Origin: an uncultured Pirellulaceae bacterium
Lineage (GTDB): Bacteria > Planctomycetota > Planctomycetia > Pirellulales > Pirellulaceae
Assembly (NCBI GenBank): GCA_938082855.1
Contig: CALKCC010000180.1
Span: 1-34,214 of the forward strand
DNA: 34,214 nt
Reading direction: 5' to 3'
The position numbers were made by a program, and so were the translations under genes. Below the pieces are notes generated by a model that saw nothing but the letters and a program-made list of their open reading frames with translations, was not told the origin of the DNA and ran no database searches. Each line of letters starts with the position of its first letter. Within the stretch, counting starts at the first letter, position 1. Below, one piece after another: positions 10,866-21,170 of the stretch.

Positions 10866-13418
10866 TTACATCGGGAATCCACCCTCGCCACCGGCGTTGG
10901 GGTCCATCATGCCGCCCATACCGCCATCCATGCCACCTTCCATGCCGCCCATACCTCCCATCATGCCGCCACCGGTGTTTTCAGCTGGTGCATCGGGTTG
11001 GTAGTTATAGCGTTCCCACAATTTGGTGTCATCGATTTCACTTTGAACGGTGAAGTTGCCATCTTTATCAAACAGTACGAATTCACCAGGTGCAAAAATT
11101 GCGTTGTCCTTAGCAAACATCTTTTCGTAGTTAGTACCTTTGAACAGTTCTTCTCCACCACGTAGGTCGGCAATGATTACGTCGGTATTGAAGTTGAACT
11201 GAGGCAGGGCATTAATGACTTCCGTGATCGGATGTCCATATTCCGCATCTGCCGTGAAATTCAAGATGGCTCCTCGATTGACGGTGCGGTCAAATGGAAC
11301 ATCAACAGCACGTTTGGTGTCAAATACGATTGGCTTAATGATGCCACTAGGTTCTGAATCAATATACATGGAACCATTCGGAGCTCGTGTTTCCCGAGGA
11401 GCTGTAACAGATCCGGCTGCAATTTGCGTTGGATCTGGTACGGTAATCGCCTCACTTGGTGTACTCCATTCCGTCTTACGGAACCAGGTACTGCCATTGG
11501 CAGCATTCGCTCGAAGTCCTTTGACGCGTGCTAATGCATCGGCATTCAGTGATTGATCTGATGGGGCATTGTGGTCTCGATACTCATCCTCAGGATTTGT
11601 ATTAGGAAGGTTGGGGTCTTCGATCCAGAGTTGAACACGATATCGGTAGGTACGGCCAATTTTCGCAGAGAAGTCAAAGAATCGGACCATCTTGTAGTCA
11701 GGGATATTTGCGGACATCATGCCACCCATATCTCCGCCCATGCCGCCCATCATACCGCCCATGCCGCCCATCATGCCGCCCATACCGCCGGCCATGTCGC
11801 CCATACCGCCCATGCCGCCGGCCATGTCACCCATGCCGCCCATACCGCCGGCCATGTCACCCATGCCGCCCATACCACCAGCCATGTTTCCATTGCCGGC
11901 TGCAGCATTGTTGTTCTTAGGTTTACGACCGCTTCCGGGGATGTTGTTGTCGACGGGCTCTTCTGCTTCTTCCTCTGGTTCAGCTTCCGCTGCGTTTTCT
12001 TCCTCGACAGGAGCTTGTCCAGCGAGTGGAATTTCCGGGTGTCTTAGAATGCCATTAATATCTCGTAGCATCACGGGAGGGCAGCTCAGTGAGATGTACT
12101 CGTTGAGGTGTGTATTATCTACGATTTCAGTTGCTGTCCCAAACCATCGATCTGCTGCACGATTGTGTTCACGGGTACTGAGAAGGTATTCCCAGTTATA
12201 TTCCCCTTCGGCTTGCTGCAAGTCGTCGGTAATGTCAACCCGTTCGACAGTCATGAAAATGTAGTCAGGGCGATCGCGCATGGCGTCGTAACCTGAACGC
12301 ATGGCCAACGCTCGTTCGTATTCGTCAAACTGTTTTTTAAATGGCACCAAAGCTGTCACGCCGACAATCGTCTGAGCGACTGCTACAGGAGTACCCTTTG
12401 GCCCGTCATTGGCAGCAGGCATTCCGCCTCCACCTTCGGAGCCACCGGCCATACCAGCCATGTCACCCATTCCGGCCATATCGCCCATGCCGCCGCCCAT
12501 ACCGCCGGCCATGTCACCCATGCCGCCCATCATACCGCCCATGGCTCCACCGCCACCACCGTTTGGGCGGTAGCCGAGGATTTGCCCTCGATCGGCTCGT
12601 AGGCGTCTGATCGTGCCACCGGTGTTGGCGTCGCCGCCCATACCGCCGGCCATGTCACCCATACCGCCCATACCGGGCATACCGGCCATGTCACCGCCAC
12701 CGCCATCCATACCTGGGATGCCGCCGCCTGCAAACGGATCATTGTTGTTACGTTTAGGACGAGTTGGACGAGGTTTTTCTTCTTCGACTTTCTGAATCGC
12801 TGGTTCGTCACCTTCAGTTGGATCTACGGAACCTTCCGGGAGCACGTAAGCAACCGGGCCTGTAAGTGCGTTTACGCGTAAGTCAGTGGCAGCGTAGATT
12901 TCGGGATCTTCACGCTTCTTGGTGTTTCGATTAACAGGAGGACTCAAAAGACGGGACATGCCATAATCGGCTGCATTAATGTTGACCTCACCTGCTGCAG
13001 CTCGTTGTTCAAATGGCTGTTCTAAATCAGCAGTGTAGAGTTCTTTTTCCTGGTCCCAGTCGCCATTACTGATGGCACTATTGGCACTTGTAATCTGAGT
13101 TTGGAGTTCTTCGGGGGTTTTGGAAAAAGTATTACCCATCGAATCTTTACCCGCATTGAGCCCGGAATAGATTAGGTAACCGGAAGCTACTACGGCCAGC
13201 GTCAGCGCAATTTTTTCCCCGTAAAGGACGATTGGATTGTCGGTAACCTGCTTACCCTTGCGTTCCCGACTAGACGACTTCTTCTTAGATTTCGCTGGTG
13301 CTTCCGGCTTAGGAGCATCTGGATCCGCCGTGAGGTCGTCTTCACCAGTTGCCGCCAGAACAGCATTCATAATTGCTTCTGCTTCAGCGTCTTTTTTCTT
13401 TTTACGTCCGAATACCAT
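10866..13418 (-). CDS. Gly/Met-repeat inner-membrane protein of a pilus-type cluster, unknown function
   Basis: I do not recognise a family for this 850-residue protein. It starts with a basic cytoplasmic stretch (FGRKKKKD; KSKKKSSSRERKGK at about 43-56). One predicted membrane helix follows at about 66-86 (EKIALTLAVVASGYLIYSG), then a long presumably periplasmic part. Globular segments (about 90-215, 345-460, 570-800) alternate with Gly/Met-rich low-complexity segments at about 229-260, 288-333, 508-568 and 815-850. An acidic stretch precedes residue 490. The third segment contains three tandem copies of GGMGGMGDMA. A block around 573-600 (FFDFSAKIGRTYRYRVQLWI) looks beta-rich. It is the third gene after pilMN-like and pilO-like genes, the position where pilP often stands, but no lipoprotein signal is present. 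A scaffold in the same envelope complex is my inference. Confidence 0.75.
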   Translation of the reverse strand: MVFGRKKKKDAEAEAIMNAVLAATGEDDLTADPDAPKPEAPAKSKKKSSSRERKGKQVTDNPIVLYGEKIALTLAVVASGYLIYSGLNAGKDSMGNTFSKTPEELQTQITSANSAISNGDWDQEKELYTADLEQPFEQRAAAGEVNINAADYGMSRLLSPPVNRNTKKREDPEIYAATDLRVNALTGPVAYVLPEGSVDPTEGDEPAIQKVEEEKPRPTRPKRNNNDPFAGGGIPGMDGGGGDMAGMPGMGGMGDMAGGMGGDANTGGTIRRLRADRGQILGYRPNGGGGGAMGGMMGGMGDMAGGMGGGMGDMAGMGDMAGMAGGSEGGGGMPAANDGPKGTPVAVAQTIVGVTALVPFKKQFDEYERALAMRSGYDAMRDRPDYIFMTVERVDITDDLQQAEGEYNWEYLLSTREHNRAADRWFGTATEIVDNTHLNEYISLSCPPVMLRDINGILRHPEIPLAGQAPVEEENAAEAEPEEEAEEPVDNNIPGSGRKPKNNNAAAGNGNMAGGMGGMGDMAGGMGGMGDMAGGMGGMGDMAGGMGGMMGGMGGMMGGMGGDMGGMMSANIPDYKMVRFFDFSAKIGRTYRYRVQLWIEDPNLPNTNPEDEYRDHNAPSDQSLNADALARVKGLRANAANGSTWFRKTEWSTPSEAITVPDPTQIAAGSVTAPRETRAPNGSMYIDSEPSGIIKPIVFDTKRAVDVPFDRTVNRGAILNFTADAEYGHPITEVINALPQFNFNTDVIIADLRGGEELFKGTNYEKMFAKDNAIFAPGEFVLFDKDGNFTVQSEIDDTKLWERYNYQPDAPAENTGGGMMGGMGGMEGGMDGGMGGMMDPNAGGEGGFPM
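11719..11886 (-). repeat. Tandem Gly-Gly-Met coding repeat with 30-bp period
   Basis: Three consecutive near-identical 30-bp units occupy 11791-11820, 11821-11850 and 11851-11880, each encoding GGMGGMGDMA. They are flanked at 11719-11790 by shorter 9-18 bp units encoding GGM and MGGM. Differences between units are single synonymous changes (for example GCC/ACC in the written strand), showing recent duplication or slippage inside the gene. Confidence 0.85.
12422..12726 (-). repeat. Second, interrupted Gly/Met coding repeat region
   Basis: Degenerate copies of the same unit (GGMGDMAGG, GMGDMAGM, MGGMMGGMG) occur at about 12422-12556 and 12632-12726 within the N-terminal half of the same gene. 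They are separated by a short non-repetitive linker (about 75 bp). Units are less regular than those at 11791-11880. Confidence 0.75.
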
Positions 13419-13503: not shown

Positions 13504-15129
13504 TTATTCAGCACCGACATCCACAGGATCGCCTTGACCTGGGGCCTGTCCATTTCCACCGTCATCGGCACCGGCTGGTTGGTCGTCAGGATCGATTCCC
13601 AGGGCCAATGGATTTGGAGGATTGTAAATATTTACAATCCCGTATACTTCGACTTCCTGGTGATAGGGATGTTCAGATGCTTGTACGACTGCACCTCCCA
13701 TTCCACCTTCCATGCCGCCCATCATACCGCCCATGGCTCCACCCATGCCGCCGTCGGTACCACCCATGGCACCACCCATGCCGCCTTCCATACCGGAACC
13801 GCCTTCCATGCCACCGGCTCCACCGGCTGAGGCTCCACCTTTGTTGATACCACTTTCTCCGCCGATTCGTACTTGAAGTACTTCAATGCTTAGCTCGGCA
13901 TTTCCACATTCTGCGAGGAATTGTGACAAATACCGCATGTCCAATTTGAGACGGATTCGTGTTGGGTATCGTTTGGCAATTGCCAATTCGGGTTTGGGAG
14001 TTCTAGCTTCAGGGTCAAGTGCGTCTCGCAAAGCGGTGACTTGCAGTGGTTGGTATTTGTCATCGACATATCGCAAATCTCCCGGGTCATCAGAGGCTAC
14101 CAGATTACCACTTTCATCCTTGCCGCCGCCGTTGTTAGAGGAGCCACCTCCCTCGGGAGACATGGATCCCATTTGTTGCATCATGTCCATTCCGCCCATG
14201 CCGCCATCTTCGCCTCCAGCTTCGCCAGCTACAATTTTACCACCGTTGAGGATGGACTCTTTGGCTAGGTCCACACCGCTGGGGCCCAGTAGGTCACCGT
14301 TTTTGGCGAGGTCGATGCCGATGATTTCAGTAACCTTAGCGTTGTAGGCAGCTTCCGCCTCTTTGTTCAGGTTTTCAATAATGCTCAGCCATTGTTGGAG
14401 CACCCACAGGTCTTCCTGTGTATAGAGGATGGACAGAGTGGAGGGCGTTTCTGTAAATGTAAACCGAGCATCCAGAGCTTTTTGGTTATTGTCTTCCCAA
14501 ACCACCATATGCGTGGGTACATCCTGCTGGACCGTTGCATTTCCACCTCCGGTAGGATCGCCTCCGGCCGGATCACCACCAAAACCACCGGCAGCTCCAC
14601 CAAAGCCTTCGTCTTCGATTTGCGGTTCTCCCCAGGCAGCATCAATACGTGAGGCCAACTTAGGCATGTAGTCTTTCACGAAATCAGCGTAATTGGTTCT
14701 GGCAATACGGTTGACTTCAACAGATACATCTTTGTTGGTTGGGTTGATGACTCCGCCGGCAGTCACTTTGAGTTCAATCGGGGTGAGGGGAATGAACTGG
14801 TTTGCGGTAACCTGTGGAAGTTCACCTTCTGCAGTAGGCCAGTTGAAAGCAGTCTTTTGCGTGGTGTATTTGGCTTCCCAAGTTCGGTGGATGTCGAACT
14901 TCACCTGATTCATGATTTCTTCCATTCCGTCTTGGAAGTCCCCATTGGGGTGGTTGCTCTCATTGACCGATTTAATCTTACCGAGATCAGTGAACACGGA
15001 ATTGATACTGTTGGTTTGCTGCGTACGTTGATCGTTAAGCTGACCTACGGCAAGAAACCAGAGGACACCTACGGTCACTGTTACGATGCTGGAAAGGATC
15101 CAGAACAGATATTTTTTCGCGTCTGCCAT
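13504..15129 (-). CDS. PilO-like inner-membrane protein with Gly/Met-rich insertions
   Basis: The 541-residue protein has a very short cytoplasmic start (MADAKKY), a membrane helix at about 8-28 (FWILSSIVTVTVGVLWFLAVG) and a large periplasmic part, the topology of PilO/GspM proteins. A block around 385-432 (RIRLKLDMRYLSQFLAEC, then LSIEVLQVRI) plus VEVYGIVNIYNPPN near 491 fits the ferredoxin-like fold of PilO, which is inference from pattern only. Gly-rich linkers interrupt it at about 175-198, 302-345 and 434-480. The first linker shares FGGAAGGFGGDPAGG with the upstream PilMN fusion. The gene lies 96 nt after pilMN, across a hairpin, and 85 nt before the 850-residue gene. Standard PilO has about 200 residues, so this is greatly enlarged. 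Confidence 0.6.
   Translation of the reverse strand: MADAKKYLFWILSSIVTVTVGVLWFLAVGQLNDQRTQQTNSINSVFTDLGKIKSVNESNHPNGDFQDGMEEIMNQVKFDIHRTWEAKYTTQKTAFNWPTAEGELPQVTANQFIPLTPIELKVTAGGVINPTNKDVSVEVNRIARTNYADFVKDYMPKLASRIDAAWGEPQIEDEGFGGAAGGFGGDPAGGDPTGGGNATVQQDVPTHMVVWEDNNQKALDARFTFTETPSTLSILYTQEDLWVLQQWLSIIENLNKEAEAAYNAKVTEIIGIDLAKNGDLLGPSGVDLAKESILNGGKIVAGEAGGEDGGMGGMDMMQQMGSMSPEGGGSSNNGGGKDESGNLVASDDPGDLRYVDDKYQPLQVTALRDALDPEARTPKPELAIAKRYPTRIRLKLDMRYLSQFLAECGNAELSIEVLQVRIGGESGINKGGASAGGAGGMEGGSGMEGGMGGAMGGTDGGMGGAMGGMMGGMEGGMGGAVVQASEHPYHQEVEVYGIVNIYNPPNPLALGIDPDDQPAGADDGGNGQAPGQGDPVDVGAE
13692..13830 (-). repeat. Gly/Met coding repeat in the PilO-like gene
   Basis: Codes for residues about 434-480 of the PilO-like protein, made of GGMEGG, GGMGGAMGG and GGMMGG units. 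The repeat type matches that in the neighbouring 850-residue protein although the surrounding sequences are unrelated. Confidence 0.75.
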
Positions 15130-15225: not shown

Positions 15226-17661
15226 TTAAATACCGGCTGGGGGGCCGTCAGGACCATCTACCGGAGGACCATCGGCACCACCAGGACCACCATTTTGATC
15301 GCCATTTAGTCGTGCTTCTTCCTCGGCTTGTTTTTCTCTTTCAAGTCGAGCTGCCTCGTCTGCTTCTGCTTTGAGACGATAGCGTTCGCTCACTTCATTC
15401 GGTTCCCACATGAATTGGACAGTGAACGAGTACTTATTTGCAGTGTATTCCTTCTCTTGCTCAACTGGGGCAGCATTACCTCCGGCATTGCCATCAGTTC
15501 CACCTCCGGTGGTATTGCCTCCAAAACCGCTCGACGGATCCGTGCCGGCACCGGCGCCACCAGCTGGGTCCCCGCCGAAACCACCGGCGGCTCCACCAAA
15601 GCCATTGTTGTTACCTGAGGCACCGATTTTAACTTCGCCCTCATCTTTGGTATCAACAAGTACAACATACTTGATGCCCATTTGTTCCATACTGAATGGT
15701 GTTACACCAAACGGAGTGGGCATCGTAAGGACGGAATGCCTCAGGCGTTCTAGTAATGCGTATTGAACGTGGCTCTTAAAGCCAGTTTCATTGTTGTTAT
15801 TGAAATAGTGATAGCCTTTCAGTTGAACCACCCAGGCACCATCTTCCGGCGCTGTGAAGTCATCACTTCCACTATCACCACTTCCTCCGGACGATCCGCC
15901 TCGGCCACCGTTGTTGTCCGCTGCTGCTGCGGCGGCTTTAGCGATGCGATCTGCTTCATAAGCTTTTAGGAATTCAACGTAAGCTTGGTTGTTTTGAACA
16001 AAACTGGCGTTATTGGCAATGCTGTCAAGCCAGGTCTGACGATCCTGATCTGTTTCATCTTTATCAGCGGTCAGTATGGAGCTGTTTTTTTCCCACCAGG
16101 CTTTCAGGTCGTCTTCGGTAAAGTAAGCATTGTCGACGGATTCAATGTAGATGTCAGGTCGATCTTTGAAATCGACAACATCCGGATCTCGCCACTGCGT
16201 CTGTTCACCGGGTAAGACAGAATTGATCGATCCGATTAATTCGAGCCACATTACCTGACGATCGCCGTTTCCGATCATCTGATTGCCGAAGCTGACCAGA
16301 TCGTCGTATTCCTTTTGGAGCTTCTCATAATCCTGTTTGTTTTTGGTCGACTTGGAGCTGGCTGTCTTGGCATTGGCAAGTTCGCCTTCCCAATGTCCAT
16401 CCATCGTAGCGCCACTGCTGTCGTGAGCCACTTTATTCCAATGCGTGTAGTTCAGGAAATAATTGAAAGTAAAGGCAACCAACAACAATGAGACAGCGGC
16501 GACCACCCAAGGTTTCTTCGAATCGACTAGGCGATCGAATAATAATTCCCGAGGCAGCAAATTCGTTTGAAGCTGTGCCAGTCCGAGTGTTTGCAGGCAG
16601 AGTCCATAGCAATTGCCGTAGGCAAGAACATTGTTACGGAATGTTGGACTGGCAGTGACGCTGGAACCTTTGAGTCGATTCCACGTTTCCAGCTCAACTA
16701 ATTCCAATTCCAGCTTCTTACCAACAAAAGACCGAAGCCCGGGAAGCTTAGCGGTATTGCCTAAAATGACAAGCCCTTTGATGGTAGCTTTACGGTCGAT
16801 GCCTTCGAAGAATCTCAGGGACCGTTGAACTTCCGTTCCCAGACTGTCATAGACACTACGCATGGCCTGGAAGACTCGCTTGGGATCCGGAGCTTCACGA
16901 GCATTACGTTTTAAGTGTTCGGCTTTGGCAAAAGTTAGTTTAAGTTGTTGCGTCATTTGCCGAGTGAAGTGGTTACCGCCGATGGGAATGCTGCGGTGCC
17001 AGACTCGAAACCCATTGGTAATGATCATGTCGGTCGTTTCCGTTCCGATCGACAAGACCATGTAACTGCCTGGAGGTGAATCCGGGTCAAATGCATCCGG
17101 GTCGGGACAGTTATCTAACAAGTCATAAGTGACGCAGTTATAGATCGCCATAGGGGCTAACTGAATCGCATCCAACTTCAGGTCAGCATTGTCAAACGGA
17201 CGCATCTCACGGACCACGTGGTCACGCTTCATTGCAAACAGTCCGACTTCGGCTTCCGTGATCAGTCCCTCAAGTTCCGTACCACCACCCATCTGCTGGT
17301 AGTCCCAGACAACTTCGGATAGTTCAAATGGAATTTGCTGGCGAGCTTCAAATTCAACGATGTCCCGTAATTTCTTCTGTTCGATTGGCGGTGGCTTGAA
17401 GAATTTAGCAAGGCCGGCCTGTCCTGAAACGGAGACGGCAACCCGTTCATCGTCAATGTCGTTACGTTCTTTGAGTTGGTCCAGAGCATCAGCAATTAAG
17501 GCCTCTGGATCTGCATCCGGTTGGCTCAGAATCTTTGGGTATTCGATGTAGTCGACTTGAGTTGCGACGACTTCACCGTCCTGTATCTCACAACGCATCG
17601 CTTTGAGCGCACATTGCCCGATATCAACTCCCCAAACTCCCGGATTCGTTTTTGCGGCCAT
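15226..17661 (-). CDS. PilM-PilN fusion protein (type IV pilus / secretion alignment complex)
   Basis: The first 360 or so residues are a PilM-type actin-like ATP-binding domain: GVWGVDIGQCALKAM (about 8-22), FEARQQIPFELSEVVWDYQ, LSIGTETTDMII (about 203-214) and the adenine motif VILGNTAKLPGL (about 298-309). Directly after it comes TNLLPRELLFDRLVDSKKPW (about 366-385) and a membrane helix (about 386-403), the hallmark start of PilN. A periplasmic part follows with a coiled segment and a Gly-rich linker at 687-720. In known systems PilM and PilN are separate and the PilN INLLP peptide docks into PilM; here the two are one 811-residue chain. The ATG at 17659-17661 has GGAAAGGG upstream; a TTG at 17676 is less likely. 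First gene of a three-gene minus-strand cluster. Confidence 0.85.
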   Translation of the reverse strand: MAAKTNPGVWGVDIGQCALKAMRCEIQDGEVVATQVDYIEYPKILSQPDADPEALIADALDQLKERNDIDDERVAVSVSGQAGLAKFFKPPPIEQKKLRDIVEFEARQQIPFELSEVVWDYQQMGGGTELEGLITEAEVGLFAMKRDHVVREMRPFDNADLKLDAIQLAPMAIYNCVTYDLLDNCPDPDAFDPDSPPGSYMVLSIGTETTDMIITNGFRVWHRSIPIGGNHFTRQMTQQLKLTFAKAEHLKRNAREAPDPKRVFQAMRSVYDSLGTEVQRSLRFFEGIDRKATIKGLVILGNTAKLPGLRSFVGKKLELELVELETWNRLKGSSVTASPTFRNNVLAYGNCYGLCLQTLGLAQLQTNLLPRELLFDRLVDSKKPWVVAAVSLLLVAFTFNYFLNYTHWNKVAHDSSGATMDGHWEGELANAKTASSKSTKNKQDYEKLQKEYDDLVSFGNQMIGNGDRQVMWLELIGSINSVLPGEQTQWRDPDVVDFKDRPDIYIESVDNAYFTEDDLKAWWEKNSSILTADKDETDQDRQTWLDSIANNASFVQNNQAYVEFLKAYEADRIAKAAAAAADNNGGRGGSSGGSGDSGSDDFTAPEDGAWVVQLKGYHYFNNNNETGFKSHVQYALLERLRHSVLTMPTPFGVTPFSMEQMGIKYVVLVDTKDEGEVKIGASGNNNGFGGAAGGFGGDPAGGAGAGTDPSSGFGGNTTGGGTDGNAGGNAAPVEQEKEYTANKYSFTVQFMWEPNEVSERYRLKAEADEAARLEREKQAEEEARLNGDQNGGPGGADGPPVDGPDGPPAGI

Positions 17662-18341
17662 TAGGACCCTTTCCAAAACTTCAAACCAAACAGAGTGTAA
17701 TTCAGCTGTTTGGAATTTATTCGGATTTATATATCTATTTAACTAGTTCGTACCAACCAAGGATTCTTCCTGTCGGCGCGCACTACCTTACAAACTGTAT
17801 CGACCAGAAACAGGGATGAATCTGGTGTTAGTTTGATAAGGATACTACACATCCTACAGTCGTCATGTCCATCACAACTTGGTGTAATCACAAAGCTCCG
17901 AATGGAGTAATTATAGCGATTACAACGAGGTTGTCGTGGTTTACGATGACCATTGCCTTTAGCAGCTGTTAGATAAGTCTATAAATGAATGATTCCGCAG
18001 TATTACCTTGGACAGAATTCAACCGCTAAAAGTTCCCTGATACCTCTGTGTTCCCTACTACTAATCTAGTGAAGTACGGGTTTTAGTGTCAATCATTTTC
18101 AGCCACTGGATTCTCATGTTTTGCCCTATCTGGCTTCTATCAAAAGAACGACTTAGCCGTGATTGTGAGTAAATCAAGTGAAATCACCGTACCACGTATG
18201 GCAGACGAGGCCAGATGAGCAAATAATGCAATAAGTACGTTGGAGGAACGACAATTTGGTACTTTGTCGTTGTTCTCAGCAAAGGTGTACATTACCGAGC
18301 TTGCACTGTCGCTCATCCTCTTTTGTTATGGTTGTTTATCG
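17662..18341. other. Long divergent intergenic region
   Basis: About 680 bp separate the pilMN-like gene from the GH38-like gene. The first 100 bp hold the predicted pil promoter. A nested inverted repeat occurs at 17883-17924: TGTAATC (17883-17889) with GATTACA (17918-17924), enclosing CTCC/GGAG (17896-17899, 17904-17907). Near the right end AACGACAA (18247-18254) pairs with TTGTCGTT (18264-18271) in the leader of the GH38-like gene. No convincing coding sequence or known RNA family was recognised. Confidence 0.5.
17728..17756 (-). promoter_or_regulatory. Predicted promoter of the pilus-type cluster
   Basis: On the minus strand TTGGTA (complement of 17751-17756) is followed after 17 bp by TATATA (complement of 17728-17733), pointing at the PilM-PilN gene start at 17661. 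The spacing is ideal for a sigma70-type promoter. Confidence 0.5.
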
Positions 18342-21170
18342 ATGCCCTACAAAGAACTATCCATCCTACTTTCCTGTCATAGTCTGGAGGATTTCCCGAC
18401 CTACCATGAGGGAGATGAAGCTGCTAGTTTGTTGGCAGGGTGGACAGGACTCTGGCATCCATTTCTGATTCACGAGTCGCGGGGGATTATCAAGTGGCAC
18501 AGGGTTGACGACCCCCCGGAAGAGCTTTTAGACAAATTGATCGTGGTCCCCTTGGCCAGCGCCGACAATTTACAAACCGGCTATCTGCAACGAGCAGAGG
18601 ACGCAGGAGCTCGGGTCATTAGTCGGCAAACCTGTCGGCAGGAAGTAATCCGTCAGGCACTGGAAGGCCAGGACGTACCTGAAATCGCTCAGGATCTAGT
18701 CGATGACTTTCTGGCTCTTGGATACTTTTACCTGCAAATCGAACTGTTAACCAGGCAGATGCGATACGCCAGTAACTTGGACGAGATTCACTTTGAAAAT
18801 ACCGTCTGCGATGCAGCTCGGTTTGCGGTCGAAGGGGAGCATGCTCAGGCCATCGAAAAAATTCAGTCCGCCTTTGATTTGTTATCAACCGAACGAGACC
18901 ACTACTATTCCGTGGATGCCTACCTGGTTGATATCAACATGATGGCGGAATCCACCTTAGGTGGAATGTTGCAGGAGGAGTTGAACGAGACGCCTCCCAC
19001 TAACCTGCTACTGGCCCCGTCACTCTATCAGTCACTGATGGACTCACACCCAGAATCCGCTCAGCTCATTCGCCAGCGTCTGGAAGATGAGTCTTTGAGC
19101 ATTCTTTGTTGTGAGCAGGATAGTATTCCTAACGCACTCCTGCCAGCCGAAGCGGTAAGAGCCTCACTACTTGCAGGGGCTCGGTCTTTTGAATCGGCAT
19201 TTGGAAAACCGCCTCAGGTTTATGGAAGAAGAGATTTTGGCCTGACAGCCAATCATCCCCAGTGGCTCAGTCAACTTGGCTTTTCGGCAGCACTTCATGT
19301 CCTCCTTGGAGAAGGTAGTTATCCGGAAAGTTCTCAGGCTAAGACACGTTGGGAAGGCCAGGATAACACCCAACTGGATTGCATTGCTCGTGTACCCTTA
19401 AACGCGAATCGGCATGAGACTTTTTTGGGATTATCTAATCGTCTGGGAGAGACGATGGATATGGACCATGTCGCTACGCTCTGCCTAGCTCACTGGCCAG
19501 GCCAGATTCTGCCTTGGTACGAGGATATACGTCGTGCTTCCAAGTACACCAATGCCTTGGGGCGTTTTGTGACGTTGGAAGAGTACTTTCGCGACACCGA
19601 CCTTCCCGGGATGAACGAGAAATTCGAAGGGGATCAATATAAGGCGCCGTACCTAAAACAGGCGATGATTAAAGGAGTTGCCAATCCAATTTCACGATGT
19701 AGTCGTTATTGGCGTCTACATAGTCGTCTGGAGTTGTTGAACGGGGCCAGCCTCATGTTAGGTTTGATGGGAGCGGACTTCGAGGACTTAGCCAGTCAAA
19801 TCCAGCAGACTCAAGAAAACTTGCTTTCGGTTAGCGCTGCGTTTGCCGAGGACTCGACCGAAGAACAGTTATCTCAAATTGAATCGTCAGTGGAGTCGCT
19901 TACTTCAGACATGCGAGAGAAACTTGCAGCAGCCGTTCCTCGGGATGGAGAACCGCAGTCTGGAGCGATCGTTTTTAATCCCTATGGGGTGACTCGAAGA
20001 TTTCAGCTGAACGAGGTGGAACTCGATCAGATTCCGCTGATTGAAAAACCCGTTTATGCGGCGGCAAGTGGGGGGACTGGCAAACAGGTTGTCGTCGATA
20101 CACCGTCGATTGGGTTTACCTGGTTGTCGGCGGGCAAGAAGAGGGAAAAGAGCGGCGCGGTCATTGCCGATAAAAACGTGCTCAAAAATGATTTCTTTGA
20201 AGTCATGATCAATGAAACCACCGGAGGAATTCAATCGATTAATTCCTACGATGCTCCACGTCACAACCGTGGCTCTTTTCAATTAGCTTATCGGCGCCCT
20301 GTGCGAAAAAAATCCGGGCGTCCTGCTGAACCTGACGATCTGGCAAATTACTCCGTCATGGCAGCTGATTCTATTGAAGTGACCGCTGCCAGTTCCGTTT
20401 ACGGTGAAATCACTGTGAAGGGTCGAATTATGAGCCGGCAGGGTGACATCCTCGCGAATTACATTCAGATCGTTTCTCTGCATCGAGGCTCGCGGGTTGT
20501 CGGCCTGGACATCGAGTTGGATATTCAGGAGCAACCAAAAAACAACCCATGGAATTCATACTACTGTCTCAGGTACGCCTGGGATAACGAAGCAGCAAGT
20601 GTATATCGTTCAGTCAACGATGTGCGACAACGCGCTTCGGGAAGCCGTCTGGAAGCTCCTCAGTACCTGGAAGTTGAATCAGATAAACGCACAGCATTAT
20701 TGACCGGGGGATTACCCTTTCACCGTCGAGTGGGTCGACGCTTTTTGGATTCAATCCTGGTGGTCCATGGTGAGACCGCACGGAAATTCCAACTCGGTAT
20801 CGGTATGGACCTGCCGCAGCCAGTCCACGATGCTCGGCAGTTTGGGATTTCTCCACTCTGGGGCAATGAGACGGCAGCTCCACCTGCGGGCCAATCGTCC
20901 AGTTCATTACTGCACGTCGATGCTCGCAATGTACTGGTAACACACTGGGAGGCATTGATCGAACAGGGGCAGTGTGTTGGGTTTAGGGCCCGCCTAATGG
21001 AAACAGCGGGCCGTCCTGTCAGAGTGCGCTTAACCAGTTGCCGTCAGGTCAGTCAGGCGTTTCAATCCAAATTAAACGGTGAGAAGATTGCTGACTGTAA
21101 CCTCGACCAAGGCCGTGTGATTCTGGAATTGACAGCCAACGAGTGGGTTGATTTAGAGGCTCGGTTTTAA
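18342..21170 (+). CDS. Glycoside hydrolase family 38-like protein, divergent
   Basis: The 942-residue protein resembles alpha-mannosidase-type GH38 enzymes in layout. An N-terminal barrel-like part is followed by a helical part and a C-terminal beta-sandwich starting near VLKNDFFEVMINETTGGI, a typical GH38 C-terminal opening. In the barrel, RRDFGLTANHPQWLSQLGF (Asp298) sits where GH38 has the nucleophile segment (x-D-P-F-G). LSCHSLEDF (His13, Asp17) and LAHWPGQILPWYEDI (His384) could be the metal-ligand sites, all altered from consensus. No signal peptide is seen from the ATG at 18342, suggesting a cytoplasmic enzyme. An upstream in-frame start at 18240 would add a hydrophobic stretch (ELALSLILFCYGCL), but I judge MPYKELSILL to be the real beginning. 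cmk follows after 36 nt. Substrate and activity are unknown. Confidence 0.65.
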   Translation: MPYKELSILLSCHSLEDFPTYHEGDEAASLLAGWTGLWHPFLIHESRGIIKWHRVDDPPEELLDKLIVVPLASADNLQTGYLQRAEDAGARVISRQTCRQEVIRQALEGQDVPEIAQDLVDDFLALGYFYLQIELLTRQMRYASNLDEIHFENTVCDAARFAVEGEHAQAIEKIQSAFDLLSTERDHYYSVDAYLVDINMMAESTLGGMLQEELNETPPTNLLLAPSLYQSLMDSHPESAQLIRQRLEDESLSILCCEQDSIPNALLPAEAVRASLLAGARSFESAFGKPPQVYGRRDFGLTANHPQWLSQLGFSAALHVLLGEGSYPESSQAKTRWEGQDNTQLDCIARVPLNANRHETFLGLSNRLGETMDMDHVATLCLAHWPGQILPWYEDIRRASKYTNALGRFVTLEEYFRDTDLPGMNEKFEGDQYKAPYLKQAMIKGVANPISRCSRYWRLHSRLELLNGASLMLGLMGADFEDLASQIQQTQENLLSVSAAFAEDSTEEQLSQIESSVESLTSDMREKLAAAVPRDGEPQSGAIVFNPYGVTRRFQLNEVELDQIPLIEKPVYAAASGGTGKQVVVDTPSIGFTWLSAGKKREKSGAVIADKNVLKNDFFEVMINETTGGIQSINSYDAPRHNRGSFQLAYRRPVRKKSGRPAEPDDLANYSVMAADSIEVTAASSVYGEITVKGRIMSRQGDILANYIQIVSLHRGSRVVGLDIELDIQEQPKNNPWNSYYCLRYAWDNEAASVYRSVNDVRQRASGSRLEAPQYLEVESDKRTALLTGGLPFHRRVGRRFLDSILVVHGETARKFQLGIGMDLPQPVHDARQFGISPLWGNETAAPPAGQSSSSLLHVDARNVLVTHWEALIEQGQCVGFRARLMETAGRPVRVRLTSCRQVSQAFQSKLNGEKIADCNLDQGRVILELTANEWVDLEARF

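Follow-up and report, generated by a model that had tools for sequence, protein, structure and literature searches.

A natural single-chain PilM-PilN protein of Planctomycetota, with its NLLP peptide most likely docked in cis

Results

The fusion gene and its neighbours

The window (the whole stretch of DNA analysed, 34,214 nucleotides of contig CALKCC010000180.1 from an uncultured Pirellulaceae bacterium) carries on its minus strand, at 15226-17661, a pilM::pilN fusion gene encoding 811 residues plus a stop. The gene begins with an ATG at 17661, its last sense codon ends at 15229 and its stop codon occupies 15226-15228; the plus strand of the same segment contains stops throughout. The product consists, in order, of a PilM actin-like domain (residues 8-360, 16582-17640), the sequence TNLLPREL (residues 366-373), a membrane helix (residues about 385-404, 16450-16509), a periplasmic coiled coil (residues 424-467, 16261-16392) and a ferredoxin-like domain (residues 469-752, 15406-16257), all on the minus strand. 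The arrangement of PilM, TNLLPREL and membrane helix in one chain, as given in a preliminary description of this DNA, is borne out by profiles, sequence and a predicted model.

We observed that 78 of the 79 class genomes keep the gene as a single unbroken frame, of 708-1069 residues, and that Pirellulales relatives (loci L002-L021) have the same fusion with TNLLPxE...KKPW kept. Relative to L002, dN/dS is ~0.04 for the PilM part, 0 for the junction and 0.07 for the periplasmic part. We read 40 further long copies from across the phylum, and in most of them the membrane helix is directly preceded by a motif that clearly resembles NLLP. The PilM-PilN fusion is real, and it is an old, phylum-wide trait. 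The sole exception among the 79 genomes, G171 (C1:5475977-5477432), has the fused gene spread over several frames, through either sequencing indels or decay of the gene.

Two further genes follow on the minus strand, for single-span proteins of 541 residues (13504-15129) and 850 residues (10866-13418), both conserved in relatives, where the first of them also adjoins the fusion. In Pirellula sp. PB1.007 (locus L123) the fusion is followed by proteins of 491 and 570 residues and then by a secretin of 1237 residues, which gives the order M::N, O, P, Q, with O and P named by position. It is likewise by position that the 541- and 850-residue proteins are assigned here to PilO and PilP; profile comparison of the 541-residue family with PilO gave 37.5%, covering the membrane helix and coil only. 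We rejected matches of neighbouring genes to Amuc_1099 and Amuc_1098, which are weak or confined to the secretin core. A secretin similar to that of L123, of 1267 residues, lies on a different contig of the window's genome, in which a type IV pilus set of PilB, PilT, PilC and pilin was found, with PilB, PilC and pilin together on contig C118 and further motors besides. Four class genomes that are 99-100% complete each have a single PF11104 match together with PilB-PilT-PilB clusters, and PF05137 PilN was not found in any of the four. With one PilM, no PF05137 PilN and motors present, the fusion is the only candidate found to carry the motors; its role in the pilus machine is inferred.

Several features of the neighbourhood are recorded here in their own right. 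An identical stretch of 16 residues, GFGGAAGGFGGDPAGG, occurs in the fusion (about 15556-15603) and in the 541-residue protein (about 14550-14597), the underlying DNA differing synonymously, and the 541- and 850-residue proteins contain long Gly-Met repeats. A large gene at 18240-21170 of the window, transcribed divergently, which contains 'ILLSCHSLEDFPTYHEGDEA', stays beside the fusion in relatives, and loci L128 and L129 have a similar neighbour.

The PilM half

The PilM domain is complete by profile: PF11104 (PilM_2) matches residues 11-358 with 94.1 bits (cut-off 27; E 1.1e-26), and TIGR01175 (PilM) matches with E 2.2e-34 and 119 bits, slightly under its cut-off of 133. We built an AlphaFold model on an alignment of 54 fused proteins (mean pLDDT 81.5), for which a Foldseek search returned the engineered PilM:PilN1-12 chimera 5eou as top match. 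Structural alignment gave Z 33.9 against 2ych (chain A, 330 residues, 2.8 Å) and Z 32.1 against 5eou.

The preliminary description ascribed to this half all the PilM actin-fold motifs. Not all of these motifs are intact, however. In the phosphate-2 region (residues 201-211), the Asp of other PilMs is replaced by Ser204 (17050-17052, minus strand), and the adenosine motif has Asn as its second residue; K20 is retained. Across the 54-protein alignment the phosphate-2 position holds Ser in 17 of the 19 Pirellulales-lineage fusions, whereas each of the 35 remaining fused proteins has Asp there. The loss of this Asp is a lineage change within the PilM family and not grounds for exclusion from it. 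The N-terminus is changed as well. Free PilMs of the phylum begin M[FL]xxxKS..GLDIG and fused ones MAxxxxxWGIDIG, although at least 2 of about 60 fused proteins keep MF. The window fusion reads MAAKTNPGVWGVDIG here and does not have the M[FL]xxK motif, which is a mark of free PilM and not of the family profile.

The PilN half

The Pfam PilN family, PF05137, was not matched by the window protein or by 52 fused relatives; this family has matches in just 49 of 147 planctomycete genomes. We assembled a comparison set from the phylum itself, consisting of 21 loci at which a free PilM (mostly ~345-400 residues) has directly downstream a PilN beginning MIxINLLPxEyR. By hhalign, the second half of the fusion matched these separate PilNs with 98.9% and E 1.7e-16 over 233 columns; a repeat run gave a shorter best local alignment, of 129 columns at 97.9%. 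Taken in pieces, the docking motif and membrane helix alone gave 97.1% (E 4.8e-11), the coil with the first strand 80.3% (E 1.4e-5), and the folded periplasmic domain only 14.8%. Reversed controls gave 3.9% and 1.0%, and 10 column-permuted controls at most 0.1%. The match is specific, since proteins in the PilO position of the separate system scored only 39.8% against the same half. An absence of PilN similarity after residue 365, which the preliminary description had named as the finding that would overturn it, is thus not what the profile comparison shows, and on these alignments the second half of the fusion is a PilN.

With the PilN half alone, Foldseek returned nothing below E 0.001. Structural alignment placed the PilO core 5uvr (Z 5.7, 3.1 Å over 89 residues) level with unrelated structures, among them phage neck proteins and permuted S6; the likeness of the predicted domain to a PilO core therefore amounts to no more than a hint. 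The modelled domain runs alpha-beta-beta-alpha-beta-beta and contains two inserts, an order which was set by eye only beside the permuted ferredoxin folds of PilN, PilO, GspL and GspM (PMC4471445). The model helix that includes the membrane segment is ~40 residues long (371-412), with the membrane crossing beginning at about residue 384.

We also considered planctomycete PilMs of ~530-590 residues with strong PF11104 matches; those inspected had other tails or upstream read-through, and not PilN.

The junction peptide and its predicted docking

Within TNLLPREL, the putative docking peptide TNLLP (residues 366-370) lies at 16552-16566 on the minus strand. All 54 aligned fused proteins have P370, L368 is almost invariant among them, and Gly353 and Pro370 lie 17 residues apart in 51 of the 54. 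Free PilMs have a median of 8 residues beyond the equivalent Gly, and separate PilNs have 8 from Met to Pro; 8 + 1 + 8 = 17 is the spacing expected had one stop codon been lost from between two adjoining genes, which we regard as a suggestive coincidence and not as proof.

In the full model, the block of residues 361-370 has a pLDDT of 94. When the second half was modelled without PilM, the values were 63 (residues 356-365) and 81 (residues 366-375), a weak control in that these blocks are offset from those of the full model. The model lies closer to PilN-bound PilM (2ych, with PilN peptide, 2.8 Å; 3jc8, 3.1 Å; 5eou, with ATP, 3.4 Å) than to the PilN-free forms 5eox, 5eoy and 5eq6 (5.0-5.1 Å), and structures such as 2ych and 5eou were among those used to train AlphaFold. 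The alignment with chain B of 5eou, of which only the first and last aligned residues are known, reaches model residue 371, corresponding to author residue 366. PilN1-12 comprises deposited residues 361-372 of 5eou; with the implied numbering offset of 3, the alignment end lies inside this peptide and would set the NLLP of the model on that of the chimera. The best reading of these observations is that NLLP most likely docks in cis on its own PilM, and a closed, PilN-bound form of PilM is predicted for the fusion. Folding back of NLLP onto PilM, as the preliminary description supposed, finds its support in the predicted model only.

Distribution in the phylum

We ran the Amuc_1101 profile (NF045709) over 59 Planctomycetota genomes and took counts from the rows listed. 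At least 53 of the 59 have an unbroken copy extending past the membrane helix. In 10 genomes the profile crosses exactly one stop, from PilM into PilN, and each of the 10 also has a fused copy. In a tree built from the PilM domains of 44 fused proteins and from 27 free PilMs, the two kinds fall on opposite sides of one branch with 100/100 support, such that a single change is needed. The fused and separate systems are therefore old and coexist.

In many Planctomycetota genomes there are several PilMs of 550-700 residues that are fused or resemble the fused form, so that several systems may coexist in a cell. In a Pirellulaceae paralogue of 826-884 residues (L131, a minus-strand frame of 826 residues; L132 and L133, 872 residues), the C-terminal half contains a PilM-like domain, which comes directly after VKVNLLPPDY or VETNLLPNK and a basic stretch rich in FG. 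NLLP is there in cis on the opposite side of PilM, and a membrane helix is not evident at that place.

Discussion

We interpret the window protein as a natural single-chain PilM-PilN that belongs to the stator ring of a type IV pilus-like machine and has its NLLP docked in cis, and we think this reading probable. Other readings have to be weighed against it, beginning with whether one chain exists at all. That two genes were joined by a sequencing or assembly error, such as an undetected stop between them, is refuted by the recurrence of the fusion in independent genomes, from the single frame in nearly the whole class through the Pirellulales loci to the wider phylum, and the low dN/dS speaks in the same sense; we give this explanation practically no weight. 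The chain might instead be cut post-translationally, or PilN might also be started internally, so that the cell would contain separate PilM and PilN. The sequence is compatible with such products, and the linkers of the fused proteins' genes contain an in-frame ATG in 13 of 54 cases and a GTG in 17. Yet the linker of the window gene has neither codon, the 54-protein alignment has no conserved Met column in this segment, ribosome-binding motifs occur in only 2 of the 54 linkers, and linker length is nearly constant, all of which makes separate products very improbable.

A second group of alternatives concerns what the chain is and where its peptide binds. GspL of type II secretion is naturally single-chain, with a PilM-like cytoplasmic domain and membrane part in the same overall layout, PilMN has been described as its counterpart (PMC4471445), and the GspL cytoplasmic domains 4pht and 1yf5 were among our fold-search matches. 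However, the fold search favours PilM (E 1e-23 versus 4e-8), the GspL family was not hit when the window protein was scanned against Pfam or when 54 members were scanned against NCBIfam, and PF05134 is absent from the window's genome and from 3 of the 4 complete relatives, with a sub-threshold match elsewhere in the fourth. The NLLP motif, moreover, matches separate PilN. The reading of the fusion as GspL in place of a pilus PilM-PilN is mostly refuted, and we hold it to be quite improbable. Less easily dismissed, if still unlikely, is a swapped arrangement, in which NLLP docks on the neighbouring subunit and so builds the ring. The position of PilM in the ring brings neighbours close, and a monomer model cannot tell cis docking from a swap; against this, the linker is short and the model puts the peptide on its own chain with high confidence.

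Comparison with known systems separates what was known from what appears to be new. The nearest named relative is the Akkermansia family NF045709 ('Amuc_1101 family PilM-like pilus complex protein'); its profile covers window residues 54-488 (184 bits, E 4.7e-54). This profile spans PilM, NLLP and the membrane helix into PilN and is matched by all 54 fused proteins (best E 3e-80), but no planctomycete copy reaches its curated cut-off of 650 bits; by the profile scores and the curators' rule, the window fusion is a relative of Amuc_1101 and not an equivalog. Amuc_1101 is named PilM-like only in NCBIfam, its PilN half being unnamed; it belongs to MUL2, a locus for mucin utilisation, and is elsewhere called 'a PilM protein', without a reference structure (PMC13174399). 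With the type IVa PilM and PilN of Pseudomonas, Thermus and Myxococcus the fusion has in common the PilM fold, NLLP, one membrane helix, a coil and a ferredoxin-like domain. It differs in being one chain and not two proteins, in its replaced N-terminal motif and, in the window lineage, in the exchange of the phosphate-2 Asp for Ser.

BfpC of the bundle-forming pilus has a single-chain layout like that of GspL, and we know of no description of an NLLP motif retained in GspL; the fusion has no sequence-family match to GspL or BfpC. The engineered chimera 5eou resembles it in having a PilN peptide attached to the C-terminus of PilM, but was made in the laboratory and contains no more than 12 residues of PilN. 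A fixed 1:1 stoichiometry, which the preliminary description expected as a consequence of fusion, would be no change, for PilM and PilN are already equal in the M. xanthus machine model (3jc8/3jc9, 24 chains of each over the two entries), and a Thermus model is six-fold (PMC13039148). The Amuc_1101 relative in NCBIfam, the single-chain precedents GspL and BfpC and the 1:1 ratio of PilM to PilN were thus known already. The invariance of Pro370, the 17-residue spacing from Gly353 to Pro370 and the replaced N-terminal PilM motif are new features of the aligned sequences, and an earlier description of a PilM-PilN fusion was not found in a search covering part of the literature.

How such a subunit might work can be outlined. 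PilM, the cytoplasmic subunit of the stator ring, would be permanently attached to the part of the chain in the membrane and periplasm, and NLLP, which plugs the PilM groove in the case of separate PilN, is tethered to the end of the PilM fold through a fixed-length linker. PilM might then stay closed and PilN-bound, with the free PilM state and PilN exchange gone. The fusion would probably work with the 541- and 850-residue proteins and a PilQ-like secretin, and carry PilB/PilT motors. In the Pseudomonas PilM:PilN1-12 study, an N-terminal PilM motif reportedly mediates PilM dimers that are broken by PilN binding, and the PilM domains are said to close on that binding; if the N-terminal motif does make PilN-sensitive dimers, the fused protein would have lost the competitor. 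The further suggestion in the preliminary description, that fusion could alter the signalling of ATP state across the membrane, is weakened by the loss of the phosphate-2 Asp in this lineage and by Thermus PilM K26A, which does not bind ATP and can nonetheless, along with PilN, stimulate the motor PilF (PMC6325625).

More tentatively, and as a possibility that we rate below even, Planctomycetota and their Verrucomicrobiota relatives may share an ancient pilus-like machine in which the cis peptide locks PilM closed and PilN-bound for good, the motif of the free state has been dropped, and PilM is a structural adaptor and not an ATP-dependent switch. Were PilM so locked, the PilN exchange proposed for other pili would be unneeded for assembly or retraction. 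As the natural counterpart of a laboratory chimera, the fusion would let the importance of dynamic PilM-PilN binding for pilus motors be tested directly, and as a single polypeptide it would be a tractable target for structural work; it would also be a single-chain stator outside the GspL family. The Amuc_1101/MUL2B family would be re-labelled, which bears on glycan uptake by Akkermansia and on the fibres at the crateriform structures of planctomycetes, which bind dextran (PMC5394234) and in which the fusion may have a role.
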